The notes under the pieces are model-generated. The model was not told where the DNA came from, did not search any database, and saw nothing but the letters and a program-made list of their open reading frames with translations. Shown here piece after piece: positions 16,930 to 31,637 of a DNA stretch of 59,577 nt. This DNA comes from Candidatus Gastranaerophilales bacterium. Its GTDB lineage: Bacteria > Cyanobacteriota > Vampirovibrionia > Gastranaerophilales > Gastranaerophilaceae. Numbering within the stretch: the stretch's first letter is position 1; every line of letters begins with the position of its first letter. The DNA lies in contig CALUPP010000030.1 of assembly GCA_944322685.1 (NCBI GenBank), positions 1-59,577 of the forward strand, read 5' to 3'. Made by a program: the position numbers and the translations under genes.

Positions 16930-18342
16930 ATGAAAATCAACAAAATCGACTCACTCAACACGAACACAAAAAGAACTAGAAGCAATTTTCCCCGCACAAA
17001 TCAGGATTTAACCAGCTTTGGCGCCGCTGAAAGGGGCGCAGCTTCGCCTATTCATTCGAAAAAAGCGGCGGAAGCAATAAAAAGCAAATTTCTTTCCGGA
17101 ATTTCGTTCAAAGGGCATACTGAATTCGTTAAGTATGAAAAAATAGGGACTTCGGGATATTATTTTCTCTCTGAGGATCCAAATAATGTTTATTCCGGAA
17201 GCAAAGATAGTCATTCAATAAGACTTATGATTGGCGCCCGTCCGAGCAGCCATGCTGATTCCAGTATTGAAGAAACTCGTGCTAGAAACGGGTATACTAC
17301 AAATAGAGTTTATTTTGCCGATCCGGAGGAAGCTGTCAATGAACAAACAAAAAAAGATCACGATTTTATCGTCTATGACAACCGCCCGCACTACCCCAGA
17401 CCGGAACAAGTCAGAGAAAATTACAAAATGCCGGGCAAAAATGCTGTAAACTACGGCCAAAACTTCAAAACCATCGCTGAATACTACGTAAGACGCGAAA
17501 AAGCAGACAGAAAAGAACTTGAAAAACTTAAAGGCGAGCTGAAAGCATTTATGCCTGAATATGAGCAATCTGTGAACTATAAAAAAATGCTCGATGAAAA
17601 AGAAGAGCTTTTCCCTTGGGAAGTAAAGGATGTAACGTCTGACAGGGAAAAATCCGACTATTATTATGATTTGAATACGAAAAAATATAATGATTTGACC
17701 CAAAAAATCGGATTTTACCAGGAAAGAATAGAAGATTCCCGGGTTCAACAGAAAAAAGCGATAGAGGCATTCAAAATCTTTGATGAAGTGGGCTTGATAA
17801 TGATGGACAGGGATAATGCACGCTTTCAAATTATGCAGCGAATTCATAATGAAATTAAACCGGCAAAAATAATTATTGCTAGAGCTGAAAAATCAATTGA
17901 GAGCCTTTTAGAGCAACAAAACGCTGCTGATGAAAACCTGAAAGCGGCAAAACAATGGAAAGAGCTGCAAATGAAAAATCTGTCAAGAAATCAGGCCAGA
18001 CTCCAAAAACTCGAACAGGAAACCGAGTGGGCAACCCCATACGATCGAGGGTTGCGGAATGAAGAAATCAAAAATTTAAAGACGGAAATCAAGAGTTTGG
18101 ATGAAGAAATTAAGGGCTTGGACAAAAAAATCTTGAATTCTGCTGACAGGCTTATTAAAACTGAAGAAGAACTTGCTAATAATCGCCAAGTTATTGAATC
18201 AGAAAAATTCAGAATTGCAAAAAACGAGTCTGAAATTCCGGAATTTCAACGCAAATTAAGTGAAAAAAGCCGTGAAGTCGACGGTTATTGGCCGAAAATG
18301 GAAGAATTTTACCGCAATAACATCGAAGAATGGCAATATTAA
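16930..18342 (+). CDS. Large coiled-coil protein of unknown function (470 aa)
   Basis: The N-terminal 60 residues are basic and Ser/Asn-rich and end in LSGISFKGH, a short-motif style I associate with Gastranaerophilales proteins (from memory). Residues 60-170 are mixed alpha/beta with no motif I know. From about 190 to the end the protein is almost wholly helical with heptad-like Glu/Lys/Leu spacing (KNLKTEIKSLDEEIKGLDKK), a long coiled coil. No signal peptide or membrane helix. TAGGAGAAAG precedes the ATG. Its stop overlaps the GH13-like gene by 13 bases, so the two are probably co-translated. Confidence 0.75.
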   Translation: MKINKIDSLNTNTKRTRSNFPRTNQDLTSFGAAERGAASPIHSKKAAEAIKSKFLSGISFKGHTEFVKYEKIGTSGYYFLSEDPNNVYSGSKDSHSIRLMIGARPSSHADSSIEETRARNGYTTNRVYFADPEEAVNEQTKKDHDFIVYDNRPHYPRPEQVRENYKMPGKNAVNYGQNFKTIAEYYVRREKADRKELEKLKGELKAFMPEYEQSVNYKKMLDEKEELFPWEVKDVTSDREKSDYYYDLNTKKYNDLTQKIGFYQERIEDSRVQQKKAIEAFKIFDEVGLIMMDRDNARFQIMQRIHNEIKPAKIIIARAEKSIESLLEQQNAADENLKAAKQWKELQMKNLSRNQARLQKLEQETEWATPYDRGLRNEEIKNLKTEIKSLDEEIKGLDKKILNSADRLIKTEEELANNRQVIESEKFRIAKNESEIPEFQRKLSEKSREVDGYWPKMEEFYRNNIEEWQY

Positions 18343-20225: not shown

Positions 20226-21059
20226 ATGAAAATTTCAAAAATCGCATTTTATAAATATTCTCCGGCATTTTGTGCAAATCATGTTGCGGCTGCGGATGAT
20301 TTTTCGCTGAAAACGGGCGGCAATTTGCCTTTTGTGGGCACTGTTGCGGCTTTGCCCGAGGTTTTTAACATAAAAACAAGGGCTTTTGAAAAATGCCTGC
20401 TTTTGTATCTCAATGATGACAAGAACGGGTGCTTTAGGCTCGTGAAAAATGACCCGCAAAAGCTGCGAAAAATCAGTGATTTTTATAAAAACCATCCCGA
20501 AATCGCTGATGCCGTGCGAAATGCGAGTTTTTCACTTTCTGATGAAATAAAAAATCAAATCAGCCGCATAAATCCGCAGGCCAGAGAGGCGATTGAGGAC
20601 GTAAATATCGCCGAAATCGTCTATACGACCCTGAATCACCCTGCCGAGCTGCAAAAATTGCAGGAATTGGGCTACAAAAAGATAAATCCGGACGGGGATG
20701 TTGTTTGTATCCAGAATTTCATCGTTAACAAGAAAAATTACAAAGATGCGTACAAAATCGTTGCGATTCCGCTTTTAAAAGGGCTCCAAAAGAACGGTGA
20801 CAAAAATATCGTCCAAAAAGCCATCGCTTTCGGCACGGACAGCTATTCACCGGTGAATCTTTATCTGTATTGGGGGTTCAAACCGTTGTCTGCGGACTTG
20901 GAACAGATTGAAAAAAGCAGGGTAAAAACTGCAAAAGGGATGAGAATTGACCCCAAAATGCCCGTTGTTATGTATCTTCCGGAGGATGCGCTGCTTTACA
21001 AGTATATTAATCGCCTGAAAGACGATGATTCAACTGTTTTTTACCGTAAAAACGCCTGA
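20226..21059 (+). CDS. Hypothetical protein with a possible GNAT-like C-terminal half
   Basis: A 277-aa soluble protein. The N-terminus (MKISKIAFYKYSPAFCANH) is in the style of other lineage-specific proteins here. Residues 170-225 contain KNYKDAYKIVAIPLLKGL, then SPVNLYLYWGFKPLS, which resembles the end of GNAT acetyltransferases (N..LY...GF) without a clear acetyl-CoA loop. This is a weak similarity. It follows the GH13-like gene by 33 bases and probably shares its transcript. Its 3' end overlaps the convergent repeat-protein gene by 19 bases. Confidence 0.6.
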   Translation: MKISKIAFYKYSPAFCANHVAAADDFSLKTGGNLPFVGTVAALPEVFNIKTRAFEKCLLLYLNDDKNGCFRLVKNDPQKLRKISDFYKNHPEIADAVRNASFSLSDEIKNQISRINPQAREAIEDVNIAEIVYTTLNHPAELQKLQELGYKKINPDGDVVCIQNFIVNKKNYKDAYKIVAIPLLKGLQKNGDKNIVQKAIAFGTDSYSPVNLYLYWGFKPLSADLEQIEKSRVKTAKGMRIDPKMPVVMYLPEDALLYKYINRLKDDDSTVFYRKNA

Positions 21060-22828
21060 AACCCGCTGAAAGCCGGTTTTTCTTGGAAATCTTGCGTTTT
21101 GGGCGCAGGATTTTTTACCACAAAATTTCTCGGGTCGTTTAGCTCCTGCATGGCGCTCATAATGCCGATTTTGCAGGCTTTTTTCTTGATTTCTGCGCTG
21201 ATAGCGTCCATTGTCAGCAAAATCAGCCTGGTCGCAACGAACGGTGCAATGAAAATTGTCGTTAATTCTTTCATTGAAAGGTTTTTCGAAAGTTTCAGCC
21301 CCTCGAAAAAGCCCGGAATTTCCTTGTTTGGCGTGTATTTTGAAAGTTTTTTGCCGAAAAGGCAAAGCGTTATGATGTTTGCCGCTGCGCAAATTACCCC
21401 GGCTATCACCTGTTTTGCACTGTTCAGCGCTGCATTTGTATCATCGACAAAGCTTTCGGACTTGTCATCTATCTTTTCAAATGCCGTAAATACCTGCTTT
21501 TGAAAGACTTTTGCGTCTTCGAGCTGTTCGGGCGTGATTTCGACCTCTTTCAGCGCTTTTTGCAGCTTTAATTCTTCTTCAAGACGAGTTTTTTTGAAAT
21601 TTTGATACTCCCGGAACTCATTTTGCATCTTGAAAATGTCCTTGAAGTCCTGAAGAACCTGTTTGTGCATTTTTTCAGGCTTTTGTTCAATTTTTGCGCT
21701 GAATTTGACCTTTGCTTTTTCTTCGTCCGAGTGGGCGATGAAGTTTTTTTCGTCAGAAAGCAGTTCTTCTTTTGCTTTGTAGCGCCCGAGCCTTGAAGAT
21801 TCCTTGGAAAGCTTAACCAGCGGCCCCGCTGCCAAAATTGAACCGATTACACCCGCGGGAATTGCGGCTTTTGACAGATAATCTATGAAATTCCCCTTTT
21901 TGAGAGCTCCTGAAAGTGCCTTTTTCTCCGCAAGTCTGCCCAGTGACCTGCTCAAAAGAAAACCGCCGACAACGCCTATCACGCCGGATACCAGCGACAC
22001 AAGATGGATTGCCAAATCGGCATTTATTTCATAGTTGTTCGATGACATTTCGAGCTTTTTTATTGTCGAGAGGATTTTGTCCCTGTCTTTTTGGGCTTTT
22101 TCGAGCTCTTTTGCGCTGTATTCGGTGTTTTTGAAAACTTCTTGCTTCTCTTTTTCGGCTTTCAGGTAATCTTTATGCCATTCTTGGTAATCTTCGTAGC
22201 TTTCATTCAGTTCTTTTATGGTTTTAAGGGATTTTTTGTAAGTTTTTAGCGGGTTGAAGCTCTCTTTTAGCGTTGTATCTTGGGTGATGTCGTCGGGAGT
22301 GTCCATATTTTGTGCGAGTTTTGCGGCTTTTTCGAGCTGTTCATCCGTGTAGATGACAAAATTCCTCGGGTCGCTCAGTTCTTTGTTTCTGGTCTGAAAA
22401 CGGGCAACGCGCGTGGACATTTTTTCGTAGTGGGCGCTTATAAAGTCAATAATTCCGACCCCGAGAATTCCCGAAACGCAATAACCTGCGTAAGCCGCGA
22501 TTTTTGGCGATTTTCCTTTAAAAACTTTCGATAAAATATAACCGAGCCCCGTACCTGCGCCCGCAGCAAGCCAAGCAAAGATTCCAAAACCGCTGTTTAT
22601 TGCGACCATTGCGTTTTCGGACTTGTTTATGCTGAGCTGATCCATTATATTTACGGCATTTATTAATGTATGGCCGTATTTTTTTGCGTCGGTGAGCTGT
22701 TTTTCGCTGGGCGGGTTGGTTTTTAATATTTGCTCTTTTTGGGCATCGCCTTTTCGCTGCTCATGCTCCCATTTGTGGTAGTTTGACCAGTTGTTTTTTA
22801 TATGTGTCAGGTTTTTTACTGCTTCCAT
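21041..22828 (-). CDS. Membrane protein built of three degenerate repeats (595 aa)
   Basis: Three units of about 150-170 residues each begin with a charged coiled-coil helix (around 14-45, 213-255 and 405-445), continue through two hydrophobic, Gly/Ala-rich membrane segments, and end in the same signature: ELSDPRNFV (150-158), LLSDEKNFI (356-364) and ELNDPRNFV (562-570). This gives about six membrane helices with long cytoplasmic or periplasmic coiled coils between them. No signal peptide and no known family. The end of the protein (PAFSGFQAFLR) recalls the F-x-G style of neighbouring proteins. It lies downstream of the radical SAM gene on the same strand, separated by a palindromic element. 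Confidence 0.75.
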   Translation of the reverse strand: MEAVKNLTHIKNNWSNYHKWEHEQRKGDAQKEQILKTNPPSEKQLTDAKKYGHTLINAVNIMDQLSINKSENAMVAINSGFGIFAWLAAGAGTGLGYILSKVFKGKSPKIAAYAGYCVSGILGVGIIDFISAHYEKMSTRVARFQTRNKELSDPRNFVIYTDEQLEKAAKLAQNMDTPDDITQDTTLKESFNPLKTYKKSLKTIKELNESYEDYQEWHKDYLKAEKEKQEVFKNTEYSAKELEKAQKDRDKILSTIKKLEMSSNNYEINADLAIHLVSLVSGVIGVVGGFLLSRSLGRLAEKKALSGALKKGNFIDYLSKAAIPAGVIGSILAAGPLVKLSKESSRLGRYKAKEELLSDEKNFIAHSDEEKAKVKFSAKIEQKPEKMHKQVLQDFKDIFKMQNEFREYQNFKKTRLEEELKLQKALKEVEITPEQLEDAKVFQKQVFTAFEKIDDKSESFVDDTNAALNSAKQVIAGVICAAANIITLCLFGKKLSKYTPNKEIPGFFEGLKLSKNLSMKELTTIFIAPFVATRLILLTMDAISAEIKKKACKIGIMSAMQELNDPRNFVVKNPAPKTQDFQEKPAFSGFQAFLR

Positions 22829-22924: not shown

Positions 22925-22995
22925 GAATTGAATTTTGTAGTTCCTTAAAACCCTACCCGCAAGGGCAGGTTTTTCGGAACGGAAAAATTCAATTC
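22925..22995. repeat. Palindromic element, copy 2 (71 bp, overlaps a stop codon)
   Basis: The outer stem GAATTGAATTTT (22925-22936) pairs with AAAATTCAATTC (22984-22995). Then come the GTA/GGA internal loop, GTTCC/GGAAC, the AAAACC/GGTTTT pairs and CCC/GGG with a GCAA loop. The core matches copy 1 at 12841-12931 in the same orientation. The right arm includes the last sense codon and the stop codon of the radical SAM gene. It may act as a terminator of that operon. Confidence 0.8.
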
Positions 22996-24176
22996 CAGCT
23001 TAAAAAATATCTGCAAAGCCCGTCCGGTGCGTGGATATCCTTGTATTTCCGGTACGCCGAGGCCATGCAGCCGCCTTTGCAGTAAGCAAAATATTTGCAG
23101 GTTTTGCATTTCATGTTTTTTGCGAGCCTTTCTTTGAAAAAAATGTTTTCTGAGCGTTTTTTCCATATTTCTTCGAGCGAATCCGTCCTGCAATCCCCGA
23201 GCGGCTCATTGCAGGCTTCGCATCCGAAGCACAGGTAAACTTTTCCTTTTGAATTTATAAAAATGGTGTTGTTTTTATGGCAAATCAGGTCTGCGCAGAG
23301 GTTTTTCAGGGGATTTTTCTTTTCTAAGTAGCCGTCAACAAGCGCTCTCAGTCTGCTGTTTTGGACAAAATCATAAAATCTGTAATTGAATTCAAAAAAA
23401 GTTCCTCGCAGTTTTTGAATTATCTTTGATGATTCGCTGATAACCGTTTCAAAATCGGGAATCATTGAGTTTTGTTCTTCAAAACAGGGCACAAATGCCG
23501 AAATTGAAAATTTTGACACCCCGAGGCGGCAGCAAAGCTTGTACAAGTTGAAAATGTCCGCTGCGTTGAAAGCCGTGGGCGTGCAGTTTACGTTTACTTT
23601 TAAGCCGGAGGCTGTGAGGCTTTTTATTGCGGTTATTGCTTTTTCAAAGTTGCCTTTTCCCCTGATTTTATCGTATATTTCGGCGCATGAGCCGTCAAGG
23701 CTTATCTGGACAAAATCTGTTTCTTTGTTGAGAATTTTTGAGAGTTTTTGGGCTTTTTCCGGGGTTAAAAGCGTGCCGTTGCTTTGCAAAGAAACGATTA
23801 TTCCGCAGTTTTTGAGCTTTTCAAGCAGTTCAAAAACGTTTTTGCAAAGCAAAGTTTCGCCCCCGGTGAGGCTGACGGCTACTGCGTTGAATTTTTCGTG
23901 CAATTCCTCGGCGATTTTCAGTAATTCATCGCCGTTCAGGTCGCCCTCCGTGTTGTAAAGGCTGTCGTCGCCCTCAAAAAAGCAGTGCTTGCAGCGCAGG
24001 TTGCAGTTTGAGTTGATTTGCCATGAAATTGTCCACGGCGTTGAAAATTTGTAGTTTTCTTCGCAATTTTGTGCGACAGCCTCGAAAAACTGCCTGTTTA
24101 CGGTTGGATATTTCTTATTTTGAAAATGGTAATCAAGAACATTTTCAAAATCTTTTATAAACGTTTCCTCCTGCAC
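22989..24176 (-). CDS. Radical SAM/SPASM peptide maturase
   Basis: A 395-aa enzyme. The radical SAM cluster motif is NCNLRCKHCF (Cys58, Cys62, Cys65), followed by SLTGGETLL, which binds SAM. The SPASM domain from about 285 has LICHKN, CFGCEACNEPLGDC and CKTCKYFAYCKGGC plus a last Cys, enough for two auxiliary iron-sulfur clusters. Such enzymes make thioether, C-C or other crosslinks in ribosomal peptides. GTG at 24176 was chosen because GAAAAGG lies nine bases before it. A TTG at 24194 would overlap the PqqD-like gene. Directly upstream lie a PqqD-like protein and a short Cys-containing peptide, so a peptide substrate is likely. Confidence 0.92.
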   Translation of the reverse strand: MQEETFIKDFENVLDYHFQNKKYPTVNRQFFEAVAQNCEENYKFSTPWTISWQINSNCNLRCKHCFFEGDDSLYNTEGDLNGDELLKIAEELHEKFNAVAVSLTGGETLLCKNVFELLEKLKNCGIIVSLQSNGTLLTPEKAQKLSKILNKETDFVQISLDGSCAEIYDKIRGKGNFEKAITAIKSLTASGLKVNVNCTPTAFNAADIFNLYKLCCRLGVSKFSISAFVPCFEEQNSMIPDFETVISESSKIIQKLRGTFFEFNYRFYDFVQNSRLRALVDGYLEKKNPLKNLCADLICHKNNTIFINSKGKVYLCFGCEACNEPLGDCRTDSLEEIWKKRSENIFFKERLAKNMKCKTCKYFAYCKGGCMASAYRKYKDIHAPDGLCRYFLSWN

Positions 24177-24180
24177 AATT

Positions 24181-24474
24181 TTAGACCTTTTCAATCATAT
24201 TTTTGCCCAACAAGTCTGAAAAAAGGATATCAATGCTTTTGTTCAAAGCGTCAATATCCTTTGTTTCAAATAGTTTTAGTGCTTTTTGTTTAATCTGTCC
24301 GAGTGAAACTTTTCCGTCGGCCAAACTGATTAAAATGCTGCCCGAAATGTTCAAAGACCACAAATCTTTTGTCCGGTAGTTGAACAAAAAGGTTGTACCG
24401 CCTTGATAATCGGCCTCAAATCGCGTCAAAACGCAATCAGACAGCCTGAAAACATTTTCATCGGAAATTTTCAT
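24181..24474 (-). CDS. PqqD-like RiPP recognition element protein
   Basis: A 97-aa protein. After an N-terminal beta-rich part (VLTRFEADYQGGTTFLFNYR, then KDLWSLNISGSILISL) comes a winged-helix-like half, the layout of PqqD-type peptide chaperones that bind leader peptides and hand them to the radical SAM enzyme. The LNISGSILISLADGKVSLGQI stretch is the typical N.tg..i..lldG..t..ei pattern. It starts nine bases after the precursor stop and ends four bases before the GTG of the radical SAM gene, a tight three-gene unit. Confidence 0.85.
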   Translation of the reverse strand: MKISDENVFRLSDCVLTRFEADYQGGTTFLFNYRTKDLWSLNISGSILISLADGKVSLGQIKQKALKLFETKDIDALNKSIDILFSDLLGKNMIEKV

Positions 24475-24483
24475 TGTTTCAGA

Positions 24484-24666
24484 TTATATTGCGCACTGGT
24501 CAATGCCGCAAGTCGGGCCTTTTACCGCACTTTTTGTGAAAGTGTCAGCCAAAGGCGAAGAAAGATTTTTTGCAGCCGGAAGATTGAATTTTTCAGCGTT
24601 TGATTTTGCTGAAAAATTGGTTTGCATTGCACCTTTGATTGCGGCCAAATTAATACCGTTCAACAT
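24484..24666 (-). CDS. Candidate RiPP precursor peptide (60 aa)
   Basis: A 60-residue peptide beginning MLNGINLAAIKGAMQTNFS, with a Lys/Ala/Asn-rich leader and a C-terminal end KGPTCGIDQCAI holding its only two cysteines. The short length, a Gly/Pro-Cys core at the extreme C-terminus and a position immediately before a PqqD-like protein and a radical SAM/SPASM enzyme make it the likely substrate. The product could be a Cys thioether (for example Cys-Gly-Ile-Asp crosslinked within the CGIDQC ring), but the chemistry is not determined. The ATG at 24666 follows AGAAAGG by nine bases. No match to a named precursor family was recalled. Confidence 0.7.
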   Translation of the reverse strand: MLNGINLAAIKGAMQTNFSAKSNAEKFNLPAAKNLSSPLADTFTKSAVKGPTCGIDQCAI

Positions 24667-24714
24667 AATAAACACCCTTTCTCTTTCCTTTAGTAACGAG
24701 TAAATTTTTTTATT

Positions 24715-24743
24715 ATTATGAAATTTACTTCTGATTTTGTCAA
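24715..24743 (-). promoter_or_regulatory. Sigma-70 promoter of the RiPP operon
   Basis: On the minus strand TTGACA (24743-24738) and CATAAT (24720-24715) are separated by exactly 17 bases, about 50 bases before the precursor ATG. The word AAGTGTAA, also found at two other promoters here, lies just upstream at 24757-24764. Confidence 0.7.
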
Positions 24744-24791
24744 TTGTTTTTGCTATAAGTGTAATAATTTGAAATGTAAATTTATAACCGG

Positions 24792-25100
24792 CTAAAATTC
24801 AATAAATTTATAGATAAAATCAATTTTTTCATCCGACAAATTATCAAGCGAGTTTTTTATCAGTTCAATTTTTTCGTTTTTAGTTTTTAAGTGGCCGAAC
24901 TCAAAAAGACTTTTGATTTCTACGCCTAGTTTTTCCGCTATTTTTGCGATTGTCGGCATTGACGGGTAATGCCTGCCGATTTCAATTGCGCTCAGCGAAC
25001 AAGTTTCAATATCAATTAACTCAGCGAGTTTCTCCTGAGTCAGGCCTCTGGATTTGCGTATTTCTTTTATACGCTTTCCCAATAATTTCTTTTTGTCCAT
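24792..25100 (-). CDS. XRE-family transcriptional regulator
   Basis: A 102-aa protein. The Cro/C1 helix-turn-helix spans about 7-62: RIKEIRKSRGLTQEKLAELI, then SLSAIEIGRHYPSMPTIAKI. The C-terminal 35 residues are a helical tail (KIELIKNSLDNLSDEKIDF) with no peptide-binding domain. It lies 125 bases upstream of the precursor gene on the same strand, across that gene's own promoter, and is the natural candidate to regulate the RiPP operon. No obvious ribosome-binding site precedes its ATG. Confidence 0.9.
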   Translation of the reverse strand: MDKKKLLGKRIKEIRKSRGLTQEKLAELIDIETCSLSAIEIGRHYPSMPTIAKIAEKLGVEIKSLFEFGHLKTKNEKIELIKNSLDNLSDEKIDFIYKFIEF

Positions 25101-25347: not shown

Positions 25348-26235
25348 ATGAAAAATATTTCGATATTTGCACACTACGACAGGGATAATATAATAGATGA
25401 CTATGTGATTTATTATCTCAACGAGTTGAAAAAGGTTTCCGAGAAGGTCATTTTCGTTTCTGATTGTGATTTGTCTAAAAACGAGGTTGCAAAACTTAAT
25501 GGCGTGGCTGATTTTTGGTTTGCGCACAAACATGGTGAATACGATTTTGGTTCATATAAAAGGGGATGGGAAATTGCTCTGAAAAATGGTCTTTTGGAGG
25601 AAGCTGAAACCTTAACTTTTGCAAATGACAGCTGTTATGGGCCCTTTCATCCACTTGCGTCTATTTATGAGGAAATGAGTGCTAGAGATTGTGATTTTTG
25701 GGGCATGACAAGCAACAAAAATTGTCTTGAGGGAAAATATTACCCTTGTATGGCGTCGGGTGACCGGCATATGCAATCGTATTTTATGGTTTTCAAAAAA
25801 CAGGTTTTTAAAAGCAAAATTTTTGAAAATTTTATTGGATCCATAAAAAAAGAACCTGACAAGTTCAACGTGGTTGAAAAATATGAGATAGGTTTGAGCT
25901 CTTTATTGTGTGAAAAGGGGTTTAAGTATGCTTGTGTTTATGCCTCGGACATTGCAGAGTACAATTTGGCGGATGTTTTGTGCAGATTTGAGTGTGAGCC
26001 GTTTATTTTTATGAAACGTACACTTTTAAAAGCTGTCTATTTTGTACCTTTTTTGCATTCTTTCTTGCATAAAATCAAATCATGCTATGACGTGGATTTT
26101 TTAATCAAAAATTTGAAAAGAACCAGACGTTTTAGGAATTTTGATATCAGGTATGCCAGAAAACAGTTGATAAGAGTTCATTTGCAAGAGCGTCGGATAT
26201 TTTTGTTGGGCAGGTGGGTTAGTTTTGGAGAATAA
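25348..26235 (+). CDS. RgpF-family (rhamnan synthesis F) glycosyltransferase
   Basis: A 295-aa protein. The start MKNISIFAHYDRDNIIDDYV and the pattern VSDCDLSKNE, FGSYKRGWE, LTFANDSCYGPFHPL and DFWGMTSN are those of the rhamnan synthesis protein F domain, used in polymerising or decorating rhamnose-containing surface polysaccharides. No membrane anchor. The C-terminus is very basic (RRFRNFDIRYARKQ). AGAGGG precedes the ATG. It opens the surface-glycan island, with base composition closer to the host than the genes after it. Confidence 0.88.
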   Translation: MKNISIFAHYDRDNIIDDYVIYYLNELKKVSEKVIFVSDCDLSKNEVAKLNGVADFWFAHKHGEYDFGSYKRGWEIALKNGLLEEAETLTFANDSCYGPFHPLASIYEEMSARDCDFWGMTSNKNCLEGKYYPCMASGDRHMQSYFMVFKKQVFKSKIFENFIGSIKKEPDKFNVVEKYEIGLSSLLCEKGFKYACVYASDIAEYNLADVLCRFECEPFIFMKRTLLKAVYFVPFLHSFLHKIKSCYDVDFLIKNLKRTRRFRNFDIRYARKQLIRVHLQERRIFLLGRWVSFGE

Positions 26236-26236
26236 T

Positions 26237-27370
26237 ATGAGAATACCTTTTAATAAACCTTATTGTTCAATTATGGGTATCGAAAATATAATTGATTCTA
26301 TTTGCTGTGGAAAAATTTCTGGTGATGGAAAGTATACAAAACTGTGTAATGAGTGGTTCCAAAAGAAATTAGAAAGAAAAGTTCTAATAACACATTCTTG
26401 TACTGCTGCATTAGAAATGATGGGATTACTGGCTGACCTTGGACCGGGCGATGAGATCATATTACCATCTTTTACTTTTGTATCGACGGCAAATGCAATT
26501 ATTTTAAGAGGAGCTACGCCAGTATTTGTTGATATTAAGCCTACGACATTGAATATTGATGAAAATCTTATAGAGCAAGCTATATCTTCTAAAACTCGTG
26601 CAATATTTGTTGTTCATTATGCTGGTGTCGGGTGCGACATGGATGAAATTATTAGAATTGCTCGAAAATATAATCTTTATGTTATGGAAGATGCCGCACA
26701 AGGGTTTGGTGCATTTTATAAAGAAAAGCCATTGGGTACAATAGGAGATTTAGGTTGTTTGAGTTTTCATGAAACTAAAAATATAATATCAGGAGAAGGT
26801 GGCTGTTTGATATTAAATAATCCAAATTTTATTGAAAGAGCAGAAATTATAAGAGAAAAGGGGACAAATCGTACCAAATTTTTTAGAGGTGAAATTGACA
26901 AGTATACTTGGGTTGATATCGGTTCATCCTATTTACCATCGGACATGATAAGTGCATATTTGTATGCCCAATTGGAAGAATCAGATAAAATTTTAAATCA
27001 TAGAATTAAATTATGGAATTTATATAATAATTTTTTTGAAATTTATGAGCGTAAGGGCTATATAAAACGACCTTATATCCCTGCATATTGTAGACATAAT
27101 GCTCATATTTATTATATTTTATTTGAGAATTTTAATAAACGGTGTTTATTTATTGAATATCTGAAAAAAAATAAGATTCACTCTGTATTTCACTATGTTC
27201 CCCTGCACAGTGCTCCAGCTGGGAAAAAATATGGAAAAATTGCTTCAGAAATGGATATAACAAACAGAGTGTCCGATACGTTGGTGAGAATGCCATTATT
27301 TTATCAATTAGATGATGAAATTGAGAGAATATTTGAAGTAATTGAAAAATTTTTTAAGGAGGCTTTTTAG
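26237..27370 (+). CDS. DegT/DnrJ/EryC1/StrS sugar aminotransferase (WecE-like)
   Basis: A 377-aa PLP enzyme that aminates a nucleotide-linked keto-deoxysugar, with dTDP-4-amino-4,6-dideoxygalactose (WecE/RffA) as the closest type by look. It has THSCTAALE, EDAAQGFGA (cofactor Asp) and the Schiff-base lysine in SFHETKN (Lys181). The start ATG at 26237 follows GGAG one base after the upstream stop. The DNA becomes strikingly AT-rich here. A neighbouring N-acetyltransferase (28682-29170) could act on its product. Confidence 0.92.
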   Translation: MRIPFNKPYCSIMGIENIIDSICCGKISGDGKYTKLCNEWFQKKLERKVLITHSCTAALEMMGLLADLGPGDEIILPSFTFVSTANAIILRGATPVFVDIKPTTLNIDENLIEQAISSKTRAIFVVHYAGVGCDMDEIIRIARKYNLYVMEDAAQGFGAFYKEKPLGTIGDLGCLSFHETKNIISGEGGCLILNNPNFIERAEIIREKGTNRTKFFRGEIDKYTWVDIGSSYLPSDMISAYLYAQLEESDKILNHRIKLWNLYNNFFEIYERKGYIKRPYIPAYCRHNAHIYYILFENFNKRCLFIEYLKKNKIHSVFHYVPLHSAPAGKKYGKIASEMDITNRVSDTLVRMPLFYQLDDEIERIFEVIEKFFKEAF

Positions 27371-28689
27371 TGCTGCTTATAAAAAAAATCTATTTAACAC
27401 TGGCTTTTTTAATATGTTTTTTTAAAAAACAAAATAATTTGGCATTAAAAATATGTCAAAAATTGATAGAAAAAAGCTATTTTATACCGAAAAAACGTAT
27501 TCTTAACTATGATAGTATGATTTGTAATATAGGAACAAATATAATTCTATCTAATAATTCATTTATAAGTGATGGTTTTTCAGAAAAAGAATTATATAAA
27601 CCGGAGCCAAATAAACTTCTGGTTTTAAATTCAGAAATTTATGACATGGGTGGACATACAGAAGCAATCCTCCATTTTGTTGAAACATTCAAAAATGAAT
27701 ACTGCATTGATTTTTTGATTACCAGCCTGTATAACTCTAGTAAGGCATTAGCTCCTGTCAAATCTTTGCTTATAAAAAATGCTGTTAATTCATATATGGA
27801 AATGCCTGTTGATATGGATTATGAAAATAAAATTTTGGAGCTATTTAAAATTATAATTGCAAATAGATATTCCGTGATTTTTGTTAATATGCATATGCAA
27901 GATGTTGTATCTTGTGCGATTTTGGGTGTTTTGCATAAATATACCGGAATAAAAATTATATTTTTTAATCATGCGGATCACATGTTTTCATTAGGTACAA
28001 GTTTTGCCGATTTAATTTTAACCAGAGTTAAAAATAAAAAAGCCCTGTCTCCATATCTTTCGAATAATAAAAATGTTAAACAGATAGTTTTTTGTGTAAA
28101 TCAAAAGGATAAAAGCAAAATTAAAACACAATCATTAAAGTTAAGACAAATGTTAAATATTCCAGAGAATGCTTTTGTTACTTTAAGTGGTGCTGATTCT
28201 TTCAAGTTTGGTAAGACATATTTTAAACTCATTAAAAAAATTTTAAAAAAGCATGAGAATGTCTATCATGTCTGCATTTCAAATTTTTCTAATAAAGATA
28301 AAAAAAAGATAAAAAAATATTTATGTGAAGAACAAAGATTTAGATTGTTAGAATATGTTACTGATTTTGATCAATATATTTGTATGAGCGATTTGTTTAT
28401 TGATAGTTATACACAGGGTTGTGCCTTAACGTTGATTGACTGCATAAAATGTTCAACCCCTGTTGTTGTCAGAGTGAATGAACAAGAACCACTAAAATCT
28501 TTTGAAAGTTATTTATTTGATTATGAATTCAAAGGTCGCAATTTAGAAGAAATGTATGAAAAAATTTCATTATTAGTGACAAATCCTGAAAAATACAAGA
28601 TTGCAGTGCAAGATGTGCAAAGGATTTTTAAGAATAATTATGACATTGAAGCAGTTAGATTGAAATATAGAGAGATTTTTAATGCTTAA
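27370..28689 (+). CDS. GT-B type glycosyltransferase (439 aa)
   Basis: Begins with GTG sharing one base with the upstream stop (TAGTG), seven bases after GGAGG. The N-terminal half holds SEIYDMGGHTEAILHFVE, the donor/acceptor loop of GT4-like transferases. The C-terminal half has a nucleotide-sugar-binding Rossmann fold with ECIS-type residues replaced by SYTQGCALTLIDCIKCSTPV, followed by a C-terminal helix ending in KYREIF. Likely builds a cell-surface glycan. Donor and acceptor unknown. It contains long A/T-rich runs. Confidence 0.72.
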   Translation: MLLIKKIYLTLAFLICFFKKQNNLALKICQKLIEKSYFIPKKRILNYDSMICNIGTNIILSNNSFISDGFSEKELYKPEPNKLLVLNSEIYDMGGHTEAILHFVETFKNEYCIDFLITSLYNSSKALAPVKSLLIKNAVNSYMEMPVDMDYENKILELFKIIIANRYSVIFVNMHMQDVVSCAILGVLHKYTGIKIIFFNHADHMFSLGTSFADLILTRVKNKKALSPYLSNNKNVKQIVFCVNQKDKSKIKTQSLKLRQMLNIPENAFVTLSGADSFKFGKTYFKLIKKILKKHENVYHVCISNFSNKDKKKIKKYLCEEQRFRLLEYVTDFDQYICMSDLFIDSYTQGCALTLIDCIKCSTPVVVRVNEQEPLKSFESYLFDYEFKGRNLEEMYEKISLLVTNPEKYKIAVQDVQRIFKNNYDIEAVRLKYREIFNA

Positions 28690-29170
28690 ACTTGTTAATT
28701 TTATAGATGAATCATTTGACAAACAGTATAATACTTTGTTATGGCGTAATTCGGAATGTGTGTCTAAATATTTTTTGATTAAATCAATTAATCCAGAAGT
28801 ACATATAAAATGGCTGGAAAGTTTACACGAAAGTAAGCCTGTAAATATAGCTTTTTTCATAAATTATAAAAATGAAGATGTTGGCGTTACATATTTTAAA
28901 CATATTAATTACAATAATAAAATTGCCGATTGGGGTATATATATTTATAAGATTGAAGCTAGAAACAAGGGAATAGGCTCAATTGTTCTTAAAAATTGTA
29001 TTAAGTATGCAAAAGATGAGTTAAATCTTGATGAGTTGTATCTTGATGTATTGAGCTCCAATCATAGAGCAATAAAGTTGTATGAAAATATGGGATTTTG
29101 TGTGTTATCAAAAAACAATAATGTAATTAGGTACAGAAAAAATTTGAAAGGGAGAAGTTATGATAACTAG
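28682..29170 (+). CDS. GNAT-family N-acetyltransferase, sugar-modifying (PseH/WecD-like)
   Basis: A 162-aa protein overlapping the preceding gene by eight bases. It has the acetyl-CoA loop ARNKGIGSIVLKNCI, then LDVLSSNHRAIKLYENMGF, as in acetyltransferases that acetylate the amino group of nucleotide-linked 4-amino-deoxysugars. Given the aminotransferase two genes upstream, the likely product is a dTDP- or UDP-N-acetyl-4-amino-deoxyhexose. The start ATG lies within the end of the previous gene. Confidence 0.85.
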   Translation: MLKLVNFIDESFDKQYNTLLWRNSECVSKYFLIKSINPEVHIKWLESLHESKPVNIAFFINYKNEDVGVTYFKHINYNNKIADWGIYIYKIEARNKGIGSIVLKNCIKYAKDELNLDELYLDVLSSNHRAIKLYENMGFCVLSKNNNVIRYRKNLKGRSYDN

Positions 29171-29996
29171 GTTATTAAAACAAGTTAAAAAGAATATTGA
29201 AAAAAAAGACGATTCAAGTATAAGTATTGCCAAAAAACATGTGAGAGATATTTTGGTAAAGCAAGGTTTTATTTTTGAATCCGGTATTCTTACAACTCCT
29301 GATGGCATTAAATTTCAAGATGAAAATTCAGTTTTTGAAGTGCACGAAGTTTTTGCGCAAAATGATTACAATTTTTTTATAAAAGAAAACAAAGATACGG
29401 TAGTATTTGATGTCGGAATGAACATGGCCGCTTCTACGTTATATTTTGCAAAAATAAAAAATGTAAAGAAAGTTTATGCATTTGAGCCTTTTTTGCCCAC
29501 AGCTGCGGAAGGAATAAAAAATATTAATTTAAATCCAGATTTAGCACAGAAGATAGATGTGTTTAAATTTGGGCTCGGTAGTGAAGATAAGATTATTGAA
29601 ATGCCTTATGTTAAAGAAGCTAGTAGCTGTATGTCAACTACACAAAATGTTTTTTTGTTAAACAATGATTTGCAATCTTTTAAAGTAAGAGATATAGAAA
29701 AATTGGAAATCAAAAGTGCATCAAAAGTATTTGGTAAACTGATTGAAAAAGAATGTATAAATGTTTTAAAGATAGATACAGAGGGAGCTGAGTATGAAAT
29801 TTTTGAAGATTTGGATGAAAATGGGTTATTGAAAAGTTTTAAAATAGTAATGCTTGAATATCACTATAAATCACCCGATGAGCTGGAAATACGCCTTAAA
29901 AATAATGATTTTGTTGTTTTTTATAGAACAAATCCAATAAAAAAAGGTGAAAAGGTGGGTATGATGGTTGCGGTTGCGATGAAAGGGTGTGAATAA
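29160..29996 (+). CDS. FkbM-family methyltransferase
   Basis: A 278-aa SAM-dependent methyltransferase. Motif I FDVGMNMAAST (about 83-93), the acidic loop YAFEPF, and the FkbM-typical VLKIDTEGAEYEIFEDL at about 202-218 are clear. Members methylate hydroxyls of glycans or polyketides. Here the target is presumably the surface glycan. GAGAAG precedes the ATG, which overlaps the GNAT gene by 11 bases. Confidence 0.88.
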   Translation: MITRLLKQVKKNIEKKDDSSISIAKKHVRDILVKQGFIFESGILTTPDGIKFQDENSVFEVHEVFAQNDYNFFIKENKDTVVFDVGMNMAASTLYFAKIKNVKKVYAFEPFLPTAAEGIKNINLNPDLAQKIDVFKFGLGSEDKIIEMPYVKEASSCMSTTQNVFLLNNDLQSFKVRDIEKLEIKSASKVFGKLIEKECINVLKIDTEGAEYEIFEDLDENGLLKSFKIVMLEYHYKSPDELEIRLKNNDFVVFYRTNPIKKGEKVGMMVAVAMKGCE

Positions 29997-29997
29997 A

Positions 29998-30876
29998 ATG
30001 GGATTGAAAAAATTATTAAAAAATCTACATTATCTTTCTAAAATAAATTTACAACAAAAAAGCACAGAGTGGGGTATCAATCAACAACAGATTGATGATA
30101 TTGTTATTGAATCAATGGATGGTAGCACAAATTACAGATTTTTGGATATAAAAAATTTTGAAGAAACAATAAATAAACTCGTTGAAACAGAAGCTTCAAT
30201 TGTAAGATTTGGTGACGGTGAACTTAATCTAATTATGGGAAATGATATAGATTTTCAAAAAAGTTCTCCAAATCTACAAAAAGCTTTAATTAATGTTTTA
30301 TCTTCTCATAATGAAAATTTATTAATAGCCATTCCTAAATCGATTTACTCAAATAAATTAAATATGCAAGAAATCCCTAAAAATTTTTGGCGTAGTAATG
30401 GATATTTATATCGTAATATTGTAGAAAAATATATAAATAAAAGTTTAACATATTATTCTGTGGAAATAAGTCAATTTTATGCTGCATACAAAGAAATTGA
30501 TTGTGGGTATTATTTTGATAAATTGAAAAATATTTGGAAAAATAAAGATATTTGTATTATTTGTGGTGAATCTGTTTTTAATAAAATTAGATTTAATATA
30601 TTTGAAACTGCCAACAGTATTGAATATTGTTACGCACCGGCTAAAAATGCATTTGAATGTTATGACAATATTTTAAATAATTCCTTAAAAATAGATAAAA
30701 AACGAATAATTATTGGAATTTTAGGGCCAACATCTTGTGTTTTGGGGCTGGATTTATTTCTTGCAGGTTATCGATTTTTAGATTTAGGGCATATTGCAAA
30801 ATCTTATGATTGGTATTCAAGAAAAATTTTTTCTTTAGATAAAAAAGCCTTAACTGAATTTTTTGATCCTGATTAG
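29998..30876 (+). CDS. GT-D fold glycosyltransferase (SP_1767/DUF1792 type)
   Basis: A 292-aa protein. IVRFGDGELNLI (about 68-79) and the terminal DLGHIAKSYDWY match the conserved ends of the GT-D fold domain first described in streptococcal glycosyltransferases (the former DUF1792). The middle (ICIICGESVFNKI, IIIGILGPTSCVLGLDL) is the Rossmann-like core. It probably adds a sugar to a glycoprotein or glycan. The ATG at 29998 was preferred over an upstream GTG at 29989 that overlaps the previous stop. It is very AT-rich. Confidence 0.82.
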   Translation: MGLKKLLKNLHYLSKINLQQKSTEWGINQQQIDDIVIESMDGSTNYRFLDIKNFEETINKLVETEASIVRFGDGELNLIMGNDIDFQKSSPNLQKALINVLSSHNENLLIAIPKSIYSNKLNMQEIPKNFWRSNGYLYRNIVEKYINKSLTYYSVEISQFYAAYKEIDCGYYFDKLKNIWKNKDICIICGESVFNKIRFNIFETANSIEYCYAPAKNAFECYDNILNNSLKIDKKRIIIGILGPTSCVLGLDLFLAGYRFLDLGHIAKSYDWYSRKIFSLDKKALTEFFDPD

Positions 30877-30893
30877 GAGAAGTTGGAGTAAAT

Positions 30894-31637
30894 ATGAAAA
30901 AATATGATTTGATTTATTCTCTTGGCGCGGATTGTGCATGTGCTACTTATTTAAAAATCAATAATTTAAGACTTTATTCTGGGCCTTTTGATTGGTTAAC
31001 TCATTGTAAATTTAGTACAAGAATGAAATTAATACTAAATAATTTTGAAGAATTTTTAAATATAGAGGATTTACGGCCATTAGAAAAAGATTTGAGTATA
31101 CACAATGATAATAATTGTGATTATTATGAAAATATTAAAAATGGTATTTGGTTCTATCATGATTTTCCTTGTGGAGTGCCATTGAAACAAAGTTATTCTG
31201 TTGTAAAAGAGAAATATAACAGAAGAATAAAGCGGTTTTATAAGTTAATTAATAAAAAGAAAAATATATTATTGGTGTGGTTTGCTCATAATCAAATTAC
31301 TCCTGATGAAACCATTATTCAGCTATGTAACAATGTTATGCAGAAATTTGAAAAATCAATTGATTTTTTGATTATAGAAAATAATAGTGGTATAGAGTCA
31401 GGGGTTATCCAAATAAGGTGGCTTTCCGAACATATTATGATATGTAATTTAAATTCTGTAAGCTATGATGAAAATGGTAGAATAACGACTTTGGGAAATG
31501 AATATATTTGCAATAAAGTATTTCAAGCAATTTGTTTAAGAAAGTCATCTTATGGGGTATTAAAAAATTTTTTCATAAAATTTATATGCCTTTTTTTGCC
31601 TAGTAAAAGCCTAAGAAGAATAATGAAAAACCTATAA
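30894..31637 (+). CDS. DUF1796 family protein (putative papain-like cysteine peptidase)
   Basis: A 247-aa protein. The start YSLGADCACATYLKINNLR, followed by SGPFDWL, matches the DUF1796 N-terminus, whose conserved Cys (here in ADCACA) and later His (WFYHDFP, WFAHNQ) led to its annotation as a possible cysteine peptidase. The family is often found beside surface-polysaccharide genes, as here. GGAG precedes the ATG. It ends the AT-rich island and overlaps the convergent porin gene by six bases. Confidence 0.82.
   Translation: MKKYDLIYSLGADCACATYLKINNLRLYSGPFDWLTHCKFSTRMKLILNNFEEFLNIEDLRPLEKDLSIHNDNNCDYYENIKNGIWFYHDFPCGVPLKQSYSVVKEKYNRRIKRFYKLINKKKNILLVWFAHNQITPDETIIQLCNNVMQKFEKSIDFLIIENNSGIESGVIQIRWLSEHIMICNLNSVSYDENGRITTLGNEYICNKVFQAICLRKSSYGVLKNFFIKFICLFLPSKSLRRIMKNL

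Follow-up and report, generated by a model that had tools for sequence, protein, structure and literature searches.

A three-gene operon on the minus strand of the window, which is the whole 59,577-nucleotide stretch of DNA analysed here (contig C30 of a 1.9-Mb assembly), very probably encodes an RRE-guided radical SAM RiPP system, as judged from gene anatomy and conservation. In the 5' to 3' direction, the ORF calls place a 60-amino-acid peptide, a PqqD-like protein and a SPASM radical SAM enzyme in succession. The arrangement is that of a short precursor with a leader and a core lying beside its enzymes, and it is conserved among relatives. The RiPP assignment draws on two independent searches, one for the RRE and one for the radical SAM enzyme, that converge on the same genomes, all of which belong to one bacterial family. 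This kind of RiPP is known; the precursors are new, and the one described here belongs to a family that is uncatalogued and has diversified strongly.

Organisation of the operon and its neighbours

The coordinates of the features are collected in Table 1. A preliminary description of this DNA had listed the peptide, PqqD-like and SPASM enzyme genes as spaced by 9 and 4 nt, and the ORF coordinates agree: 9 nt separate the peptide stop codon from the ATG of the PqqD-like gene, whose own stop codon lies 4 nt before the GTG of the radical SAM gene. The peptide is 60 amino acids long if translated from the ATG at 24666, or 63 if the GTG at 24675 is the start. An alternative radical SAM start, TTG at 24194, yields 401 amino acids and would overlap the PqqD-like gene. 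A ribosome-binding site, AGAAAGGG, is located 8 nt upstream of the peptide ATG, and the consensus promoter previously proposed to precede the gene is present, reading from 24743 to 24715. The inverted repeat around the -10 box is suggestive at best of an operator: it is the sole copy in the window, and at least one match with three or fewer mismatches occurs in 29% of shuffles, which is not clearly above chance. A perfect 11-bp hairpin (24587-24618; -10.1 kcal/mol, z -5.4) lies within the leader-coding part of the peptide mRNA.

Table 1. Positions of the operon, its signals and the flanking genes in the window.
Feature	Position	Strand	Basis
Precursor peptide gene	24484..24666	-	ORF and ribosome-binding site; conserved in G365 (locus L015) with synonymous turnover
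Leader element FNLP, residues 27-30, putative RRE-binding motif	24577..24588	-	LP invariant in alignments
Putative core AVKGPTCGIDQCAI, residues 47-60, with Cys53 and Cys58	24487..24528	-	Tail identity with G365
PqqD-like RiPP recognition element (RRE), 97 aa	24181..24474	-	AlphaFold and Foldseek
Radical SAM/SPASM peptide maturase, 395 aa from GTG 24176	22989..24176	-	Motifs, Pfam, Foldseek
Sigma-70-type promoter TTGACA-17-CATAAT	24715..24743	-	Consensus match at 11/12 positions
Inverted repeat AGTAAATTT-13 nt-AAATTTACT around the -10 box	24699..24729	.	Weak putative operator
Terminator-like hairpin directly 3' of the radical SAM gene	22940..22985	-	RNA fold -20.5 kcal/mol, z -3.7
XRE/RstR-like regulator, 102 aa	24792..25100	-	HTH_19, E 1.6e-14
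Coiled-coil/membrane protein, 595 aa, following the operon	21041-22828		No Pfam family

The one-strand gene order proposed earlier began with an XRE regulator. This gene does lie upstream on the same strand, but a homologue is present at none (0) of the related loci. We therefore do not count it as a component of the system, and it is probably only a neighbour of the operon. The 595-amino-acid coiled-coil protein was likewise rejected as a part of the system. A homologue with 50% identity also lies downstream of the operon in genome G365, and relatives occur in 24 of 59 related genomes; because these relatives are widespread in genomes that lack the operon, the protein is treated as a neighbour.

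On the plus strand, positions 25348-31637 carry glycan-type genes (RgpF, DegT aminotransferase, glycosyltransferase, GNAT, FkbM methyltransferase, GT-D and DUF1796). The GC content of this run is 28.6%, compared with 40.6% for the whole window, and it is probably an acquired surface-polysaccharide cluster. The photosystem I proteins PsaA/PsaB are present in 63 of 146 genomes of the phylum, and the genome containing the window has none, nor is any match listed for its family. Because these proteins are absent here though present elsewhere in the phylum, the source lineage is taken to be non-photosynthetic Cyanobacteriota.

Precursor conservation and probable leader recognition

The peptide ends in PTCGIDQCAI, which includes Cys53 and Cys58. 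It had been described as belonging to no nameable family, and indeed it matches none in NCBIfam or Pfam. When its sequence was used to search 239 genomes of the family, only the peptide itself was recovered. The precursors are too diverged for such a search, and therefore the RRE and the radical SAM enzyme were used as queries. A locus in G365, the nearest relative, which represents another genus of the same family, has the same gene order, with a 62-amino-acid peptide, an RRE of 39% identity and a radical SAM enzyme of 54% identity. The two peptides can be aligned end to end, that of G365 terminating in KAVKGPTCGIDCCAL and that of the window in SAVKGPTCGIDQCAI. Amino-acid identity is 80% over the last 20 codons and 30% over the first 40, which is the pattern of variable leader and invariant core that the preliminary description had put forward as a check. 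The last 20 codons differ at 4, 4 and 13 sites in codon positions 1, 2 and 3, respectively. Third positions have thus turned over while the amino acids were kept, and we conclude that the tail AVKGPTCGID(Q/C)CA(I/L) is under purifying selection. The leader would comprise approximately residues 1-45, and the core would begin near residue 47.

The PqqD-like protein scores 18.0 bits against the Pfam PqqD model (E 0.0037). Because this value is below the cut-off of 23.4 bits, its assignment needed evidence from the fold. The AlphaFold model (pLDDT 95) has a winged RRE fold: Foldseek gives the complex of the lasso RRE TbiB1 with its leader as the best match (E 1.2e-4, TM 0.75-0.81), followed by TfuB1, also a lasso RRE, and PqqD. 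RREs of this kind, PqqD and the sactipeptide protein StsC among them, are reported to bind W/Y/LxxP/L/I leader elements (PMC12710340), and lasso and LPP leaders require YxxP (PMC13381572). The F27-N-L-P30 element of the window leader matches the W/Y/LxxP-type pattern, and its LP is invariant in two alignments (A3 and A7). It is likely that the RRE binds this xLP element. The window protein therefore resembles the discrete RREs of the lasso, PqqD and StsC systems in that it is free, of 80-100 amino acids, structurally matched to TbiB1, TfuB1 (leader-bound) and PqqD, and accompanied by a hydrophobic-x-x-P leader element. It differs from lasso RREs in that its partner is a SPASM radical SAM enzyme and no lasso cyclase, and from PqqD in its Pfam score.

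The radical SAM enzyme and its possible crosslink chemistry

The enzyme matches the Pfam Radical SAM (E 2.5e-23) and SPASM (E 5.8e-7) families above their cut-offs. It carries CX3CX2C and the complete SPASM cysteine set (C305-x11-G-x4-C322 and C363-x2-C-x5-C-x3-C-x17-C394), and both the SAM and SPASM motifs are invariant across 10 relatives. It is the sole SPASM gene found in the genome containing the window. The nearest Foldseek matches of its model (pLDDT 80) are SuiB, which is the best, SkfB, anSME and PqqE; SkfB is also the best PDB sequence match, and CteB is among the top maturase-like matches. None of the 25 best NCBIfam maturase models shown reached its cut-off.

The core shared by the window and G365 peptides, AVKGPTCGIDxCA, is free of W, F, Y and H, and none of these occurs in residues 46-60 of the window peptide. 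Cysteine is therefore the likeliest site of modification, and aryl crosslinks are unlikely in the window peptide. On this sequence evidence we consider a cysteine thioether linkage in the core somewhat probable. Sactipeptide maturases such as StsB and SkfB are SPASM enzymes that join cysteines to alpha carbons, and the window enzyme resembles them in its SPASM domain and in its PDB match to SkfB. It differs in scoring 103.9 bits against the StsB model NF045574 (cut-off 625), and the window precursor matches no NCBIfam sactipeptide precursor model.

The ranthipeptide maturase PapB accepts Cys-Xn-Asp with n = 0-6 (PMC9413430). By analogy, a PapB-like Cys-Asp linkage is possible: PapB and freyrasin likewise pair a SPASM radical SAM enzyme with a cysteine-containing core, and C53-x2-D56 falls inside the PapB range. 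Unlike that system, the window enzyme scores 66.1 bits against the PapB model NF047865 (cut-off 340), and the core has a single C-x2-D and no repeated C-x3-D/E. Furthermore, an acidic residue lies within 0-6 positions of a cysteine in 10 of 13 groups of precursors, compared with 9.3 expected in shuffled tails. Because acids near cysteines are not enriched in the family, the sequences do not favour a Cys-Asp link, and it was rejected as a family rule.

Less likely than a thioether, yet the strongest of the competing explanations, is a RiPP in which the modification does not involve cysteine, such as a carbon-carbon crosslink, epimerisation or hydroxylation, with the cysteines free, in a disulfide or bound to metal; we regard this as unlikely. 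It draws on the fact that SuiB, which makes the Lys-Trp link of streptide, ranks first among the fold matches of the enzyme, and that the WgkB profile gives a full-length match in all 10 members, with the window enzyme at 105 bits (cut-off 650). W, Y or F is also abundant in several of the other precursors. However, Lys-Trp chemistry of the streptide or WGK type needs Trp, other aryl links need an aromatic acceptor in the core, and the window and G365 cores have neither. In addition, cysteine is the one residue type that stands out in the C-terminal half of each precursor.

Very improbable is a peptide-derived redox cofactor resembling PQQ or mycofactocin. The minimal layout of precursor, PqqD-like protein and SPASM enzyme would suit such a product, as would weak matches to the MftC (mycofactocin) and PqqE profiles, but these scores are far under their cut-offs (118 versus 265 bits and 71.9 versus 381.35 bits). 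The window precursor has no Tyr and so lacks the Glu/Tyr pair of PqqA, no follow-on cofactor genes lie next door, and the tails vary widely among relatives, unlike a cofactor.

Related operons, proposed processing and significance

Of 383 genomes of the order, 19 contained matches to the RRE profile, 25 in all. The independent radical SAM search gave hits in 18 of 383 genomes of the family, all of which had already been found with the RRE except G625, whose enzyme sits at a contig edge. Across a sample of 386 genomes from the whole phylum, RRE matches came from members of the family of the window alone. In total, 23 operons were identified in 19 genomes of this one family; this total includes the window and treats each fused-enzyme pair as one. 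A short peptide, with a ribosome-binding site ahead of it, precedes the RRE/radical SAM pair in all 23 operons at distances of -31 to +90 nt from the next gene. This figure rests on inspection, because a strict rule applied to the directly upstream gene scored only 10 of 28 radical SAM genes; the rule misses many operons in which the RRE separates peptide from enzyme. By the same rule, a comparable small Cys-ending ORF lies just upstream of 3 of 213 other genes of these loci, which served as the control. The preliminary description had read the three genes as a RiPP locus and had named loci that keep the enzyme pair and lack the peptide as evidence to the contrary. No such locus was seen among the 23 operons judged, and that reading stands.

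It is scarcely credible that the 60-amino-acid ORF is not a gene and that the RRE and radical SAM enzyme act on something encoded elsewhere, for although ORFs this short can occur by chance and the peptide is missing from NCBIfam and Pfam, it has been kept in another genus while synonymous sites turned over, follows a consensus promoter and a ribosome-binding site, and has a counterpart at every related operon, far above the control.

The operon is absent from both other genomes of the genus that were searched (assemblies 92-95% complete), and its distribution is therefore patchy. The gene order is precursor-RRE-radical SAM in the window and several other operons and precursor-radical SAM-RRE in the remainder. 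This order broadly tracks the enzyme tree, in which a fully supported clade unites the window with G365.

The precursors of the family match no known family, and their tails are diverse: TCGIDQCAI, TCNDYEPYDYCSPLFP, RYCGSDFACSLLY, TCGAPFANRNCGIWL, DCGEGNNYEYFIHLA, PCSDFCMEVVG, GCGCEDWCTALLNF and CAYGDNPDGECFSAYGGFVC. Across 25 precursors, 56 cysteines lie in the second half of the peptide and 2 in the first. Of these precursors, 16 have a hydrophobic-x-(L/I)P or LTP element in the leader, between residues ~20 and ~40; a clear LP element is lacking in G287, G291, G161b and the fused-type precursors. In a shuffle test whose pattern was written after looking at the peptides, the LP element occurred in 8 of 13 groups versus 1.5 expected. 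The motif C-[GSN] occurs in 8 of 13 groups versus 4.5 expected, a value reached by 3% of shuffles, but because this enrichment was looked for once the data had been seen, it carries little weight. The precursor of G291 (L052:5652-5993) has three near-identical tandem AADSCxGMMSWSTHTAP repeats beside its RRE and radical SAM genes, and G384 (L060) has three tandem precursors. Such core repeats and tandem precursors are typical of RiPPs, and they support this assignment. G156 and G215 also have fused RRE-radical SAM enzymes, and their precursor ends in Cys.

Two further observations concern individual loci. Precursors at the fused-enzyme loci L061 and L062 start with MEV(N/S)K(I/V)SFGA, which is like the N-termini of the MKI...F(K/G)G type seen in many other proteins of these genomes, including examples in the window at 16930 and 20226; an N-terminal signal common to these proteins is conceivable. 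In G344 and G348 (L050 and L051), the RRE gene is followed by another SPASM radical SAM gene, separate from the first, and the core is WDGCGCEDWCT(A/P)LL(N/S)F. These operons possibly carry out two successive modifications.

We consider it fairly probable that the full pathway involves an RRE-held leader, a thioether formed at Cys53/Cys58 by the SPASM enzyme and release by a housekeeping protease. The ribosome would make the 60-amino-acid precursor, and the free RRE would hold the leader via F-N-L-P as an added strand along its beta sheet and deliver it to the SPASM radical SAM enzyme. The enzyme would abstract a hydrogen with a 5'-deoxyadenosyl radical and, with the help of its auxiliary clusters, would link one or both cysteines to a carbon of a nearby residue in KGPTCGIDQCAI. 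The housekeeping protease would then free the tail. As described earlier, no protease or exporter gene lies at the window locus. No C39 peptidase was found in its genome, which dismisses a C39 exporter for the peptide, and no ABC-transporter motifs were seen among the genes of related loci. The product would most likely be a small peptide that acts on neighbouring bacteria or as a signal, and such a role, rather than that of a cofactor, is moderately favoured.

Because related, tail-diverse operons span the family, the locus looks like an uncatalogued natural-product family and not like a chance short gene. Among the papers searched, no study links Gastranaerophilales to radical SAM RiPPs, and the two are mentioned together once in passing. 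A broader and rather doubtful proposal is that these family-confined RiPPs place more than 10 unrelated Cys tails on one RRE/SPASM scaffold, carry undescribed crosslinks and serve as lineage-specific gut signals or weapons; it covers the single, double, triple-repeat, tandem-precursor and fused-enzyme versions. Since the three genes are small and self-contained, the chemistry is open to heterologous expression. If the RiPP assignment is true, it adds an uncatalogued family of peptide natural products, and the diverse tails on one enzyme scaffold would offer a naturally occurring test of how SPASM enzymes select their crosslinks.
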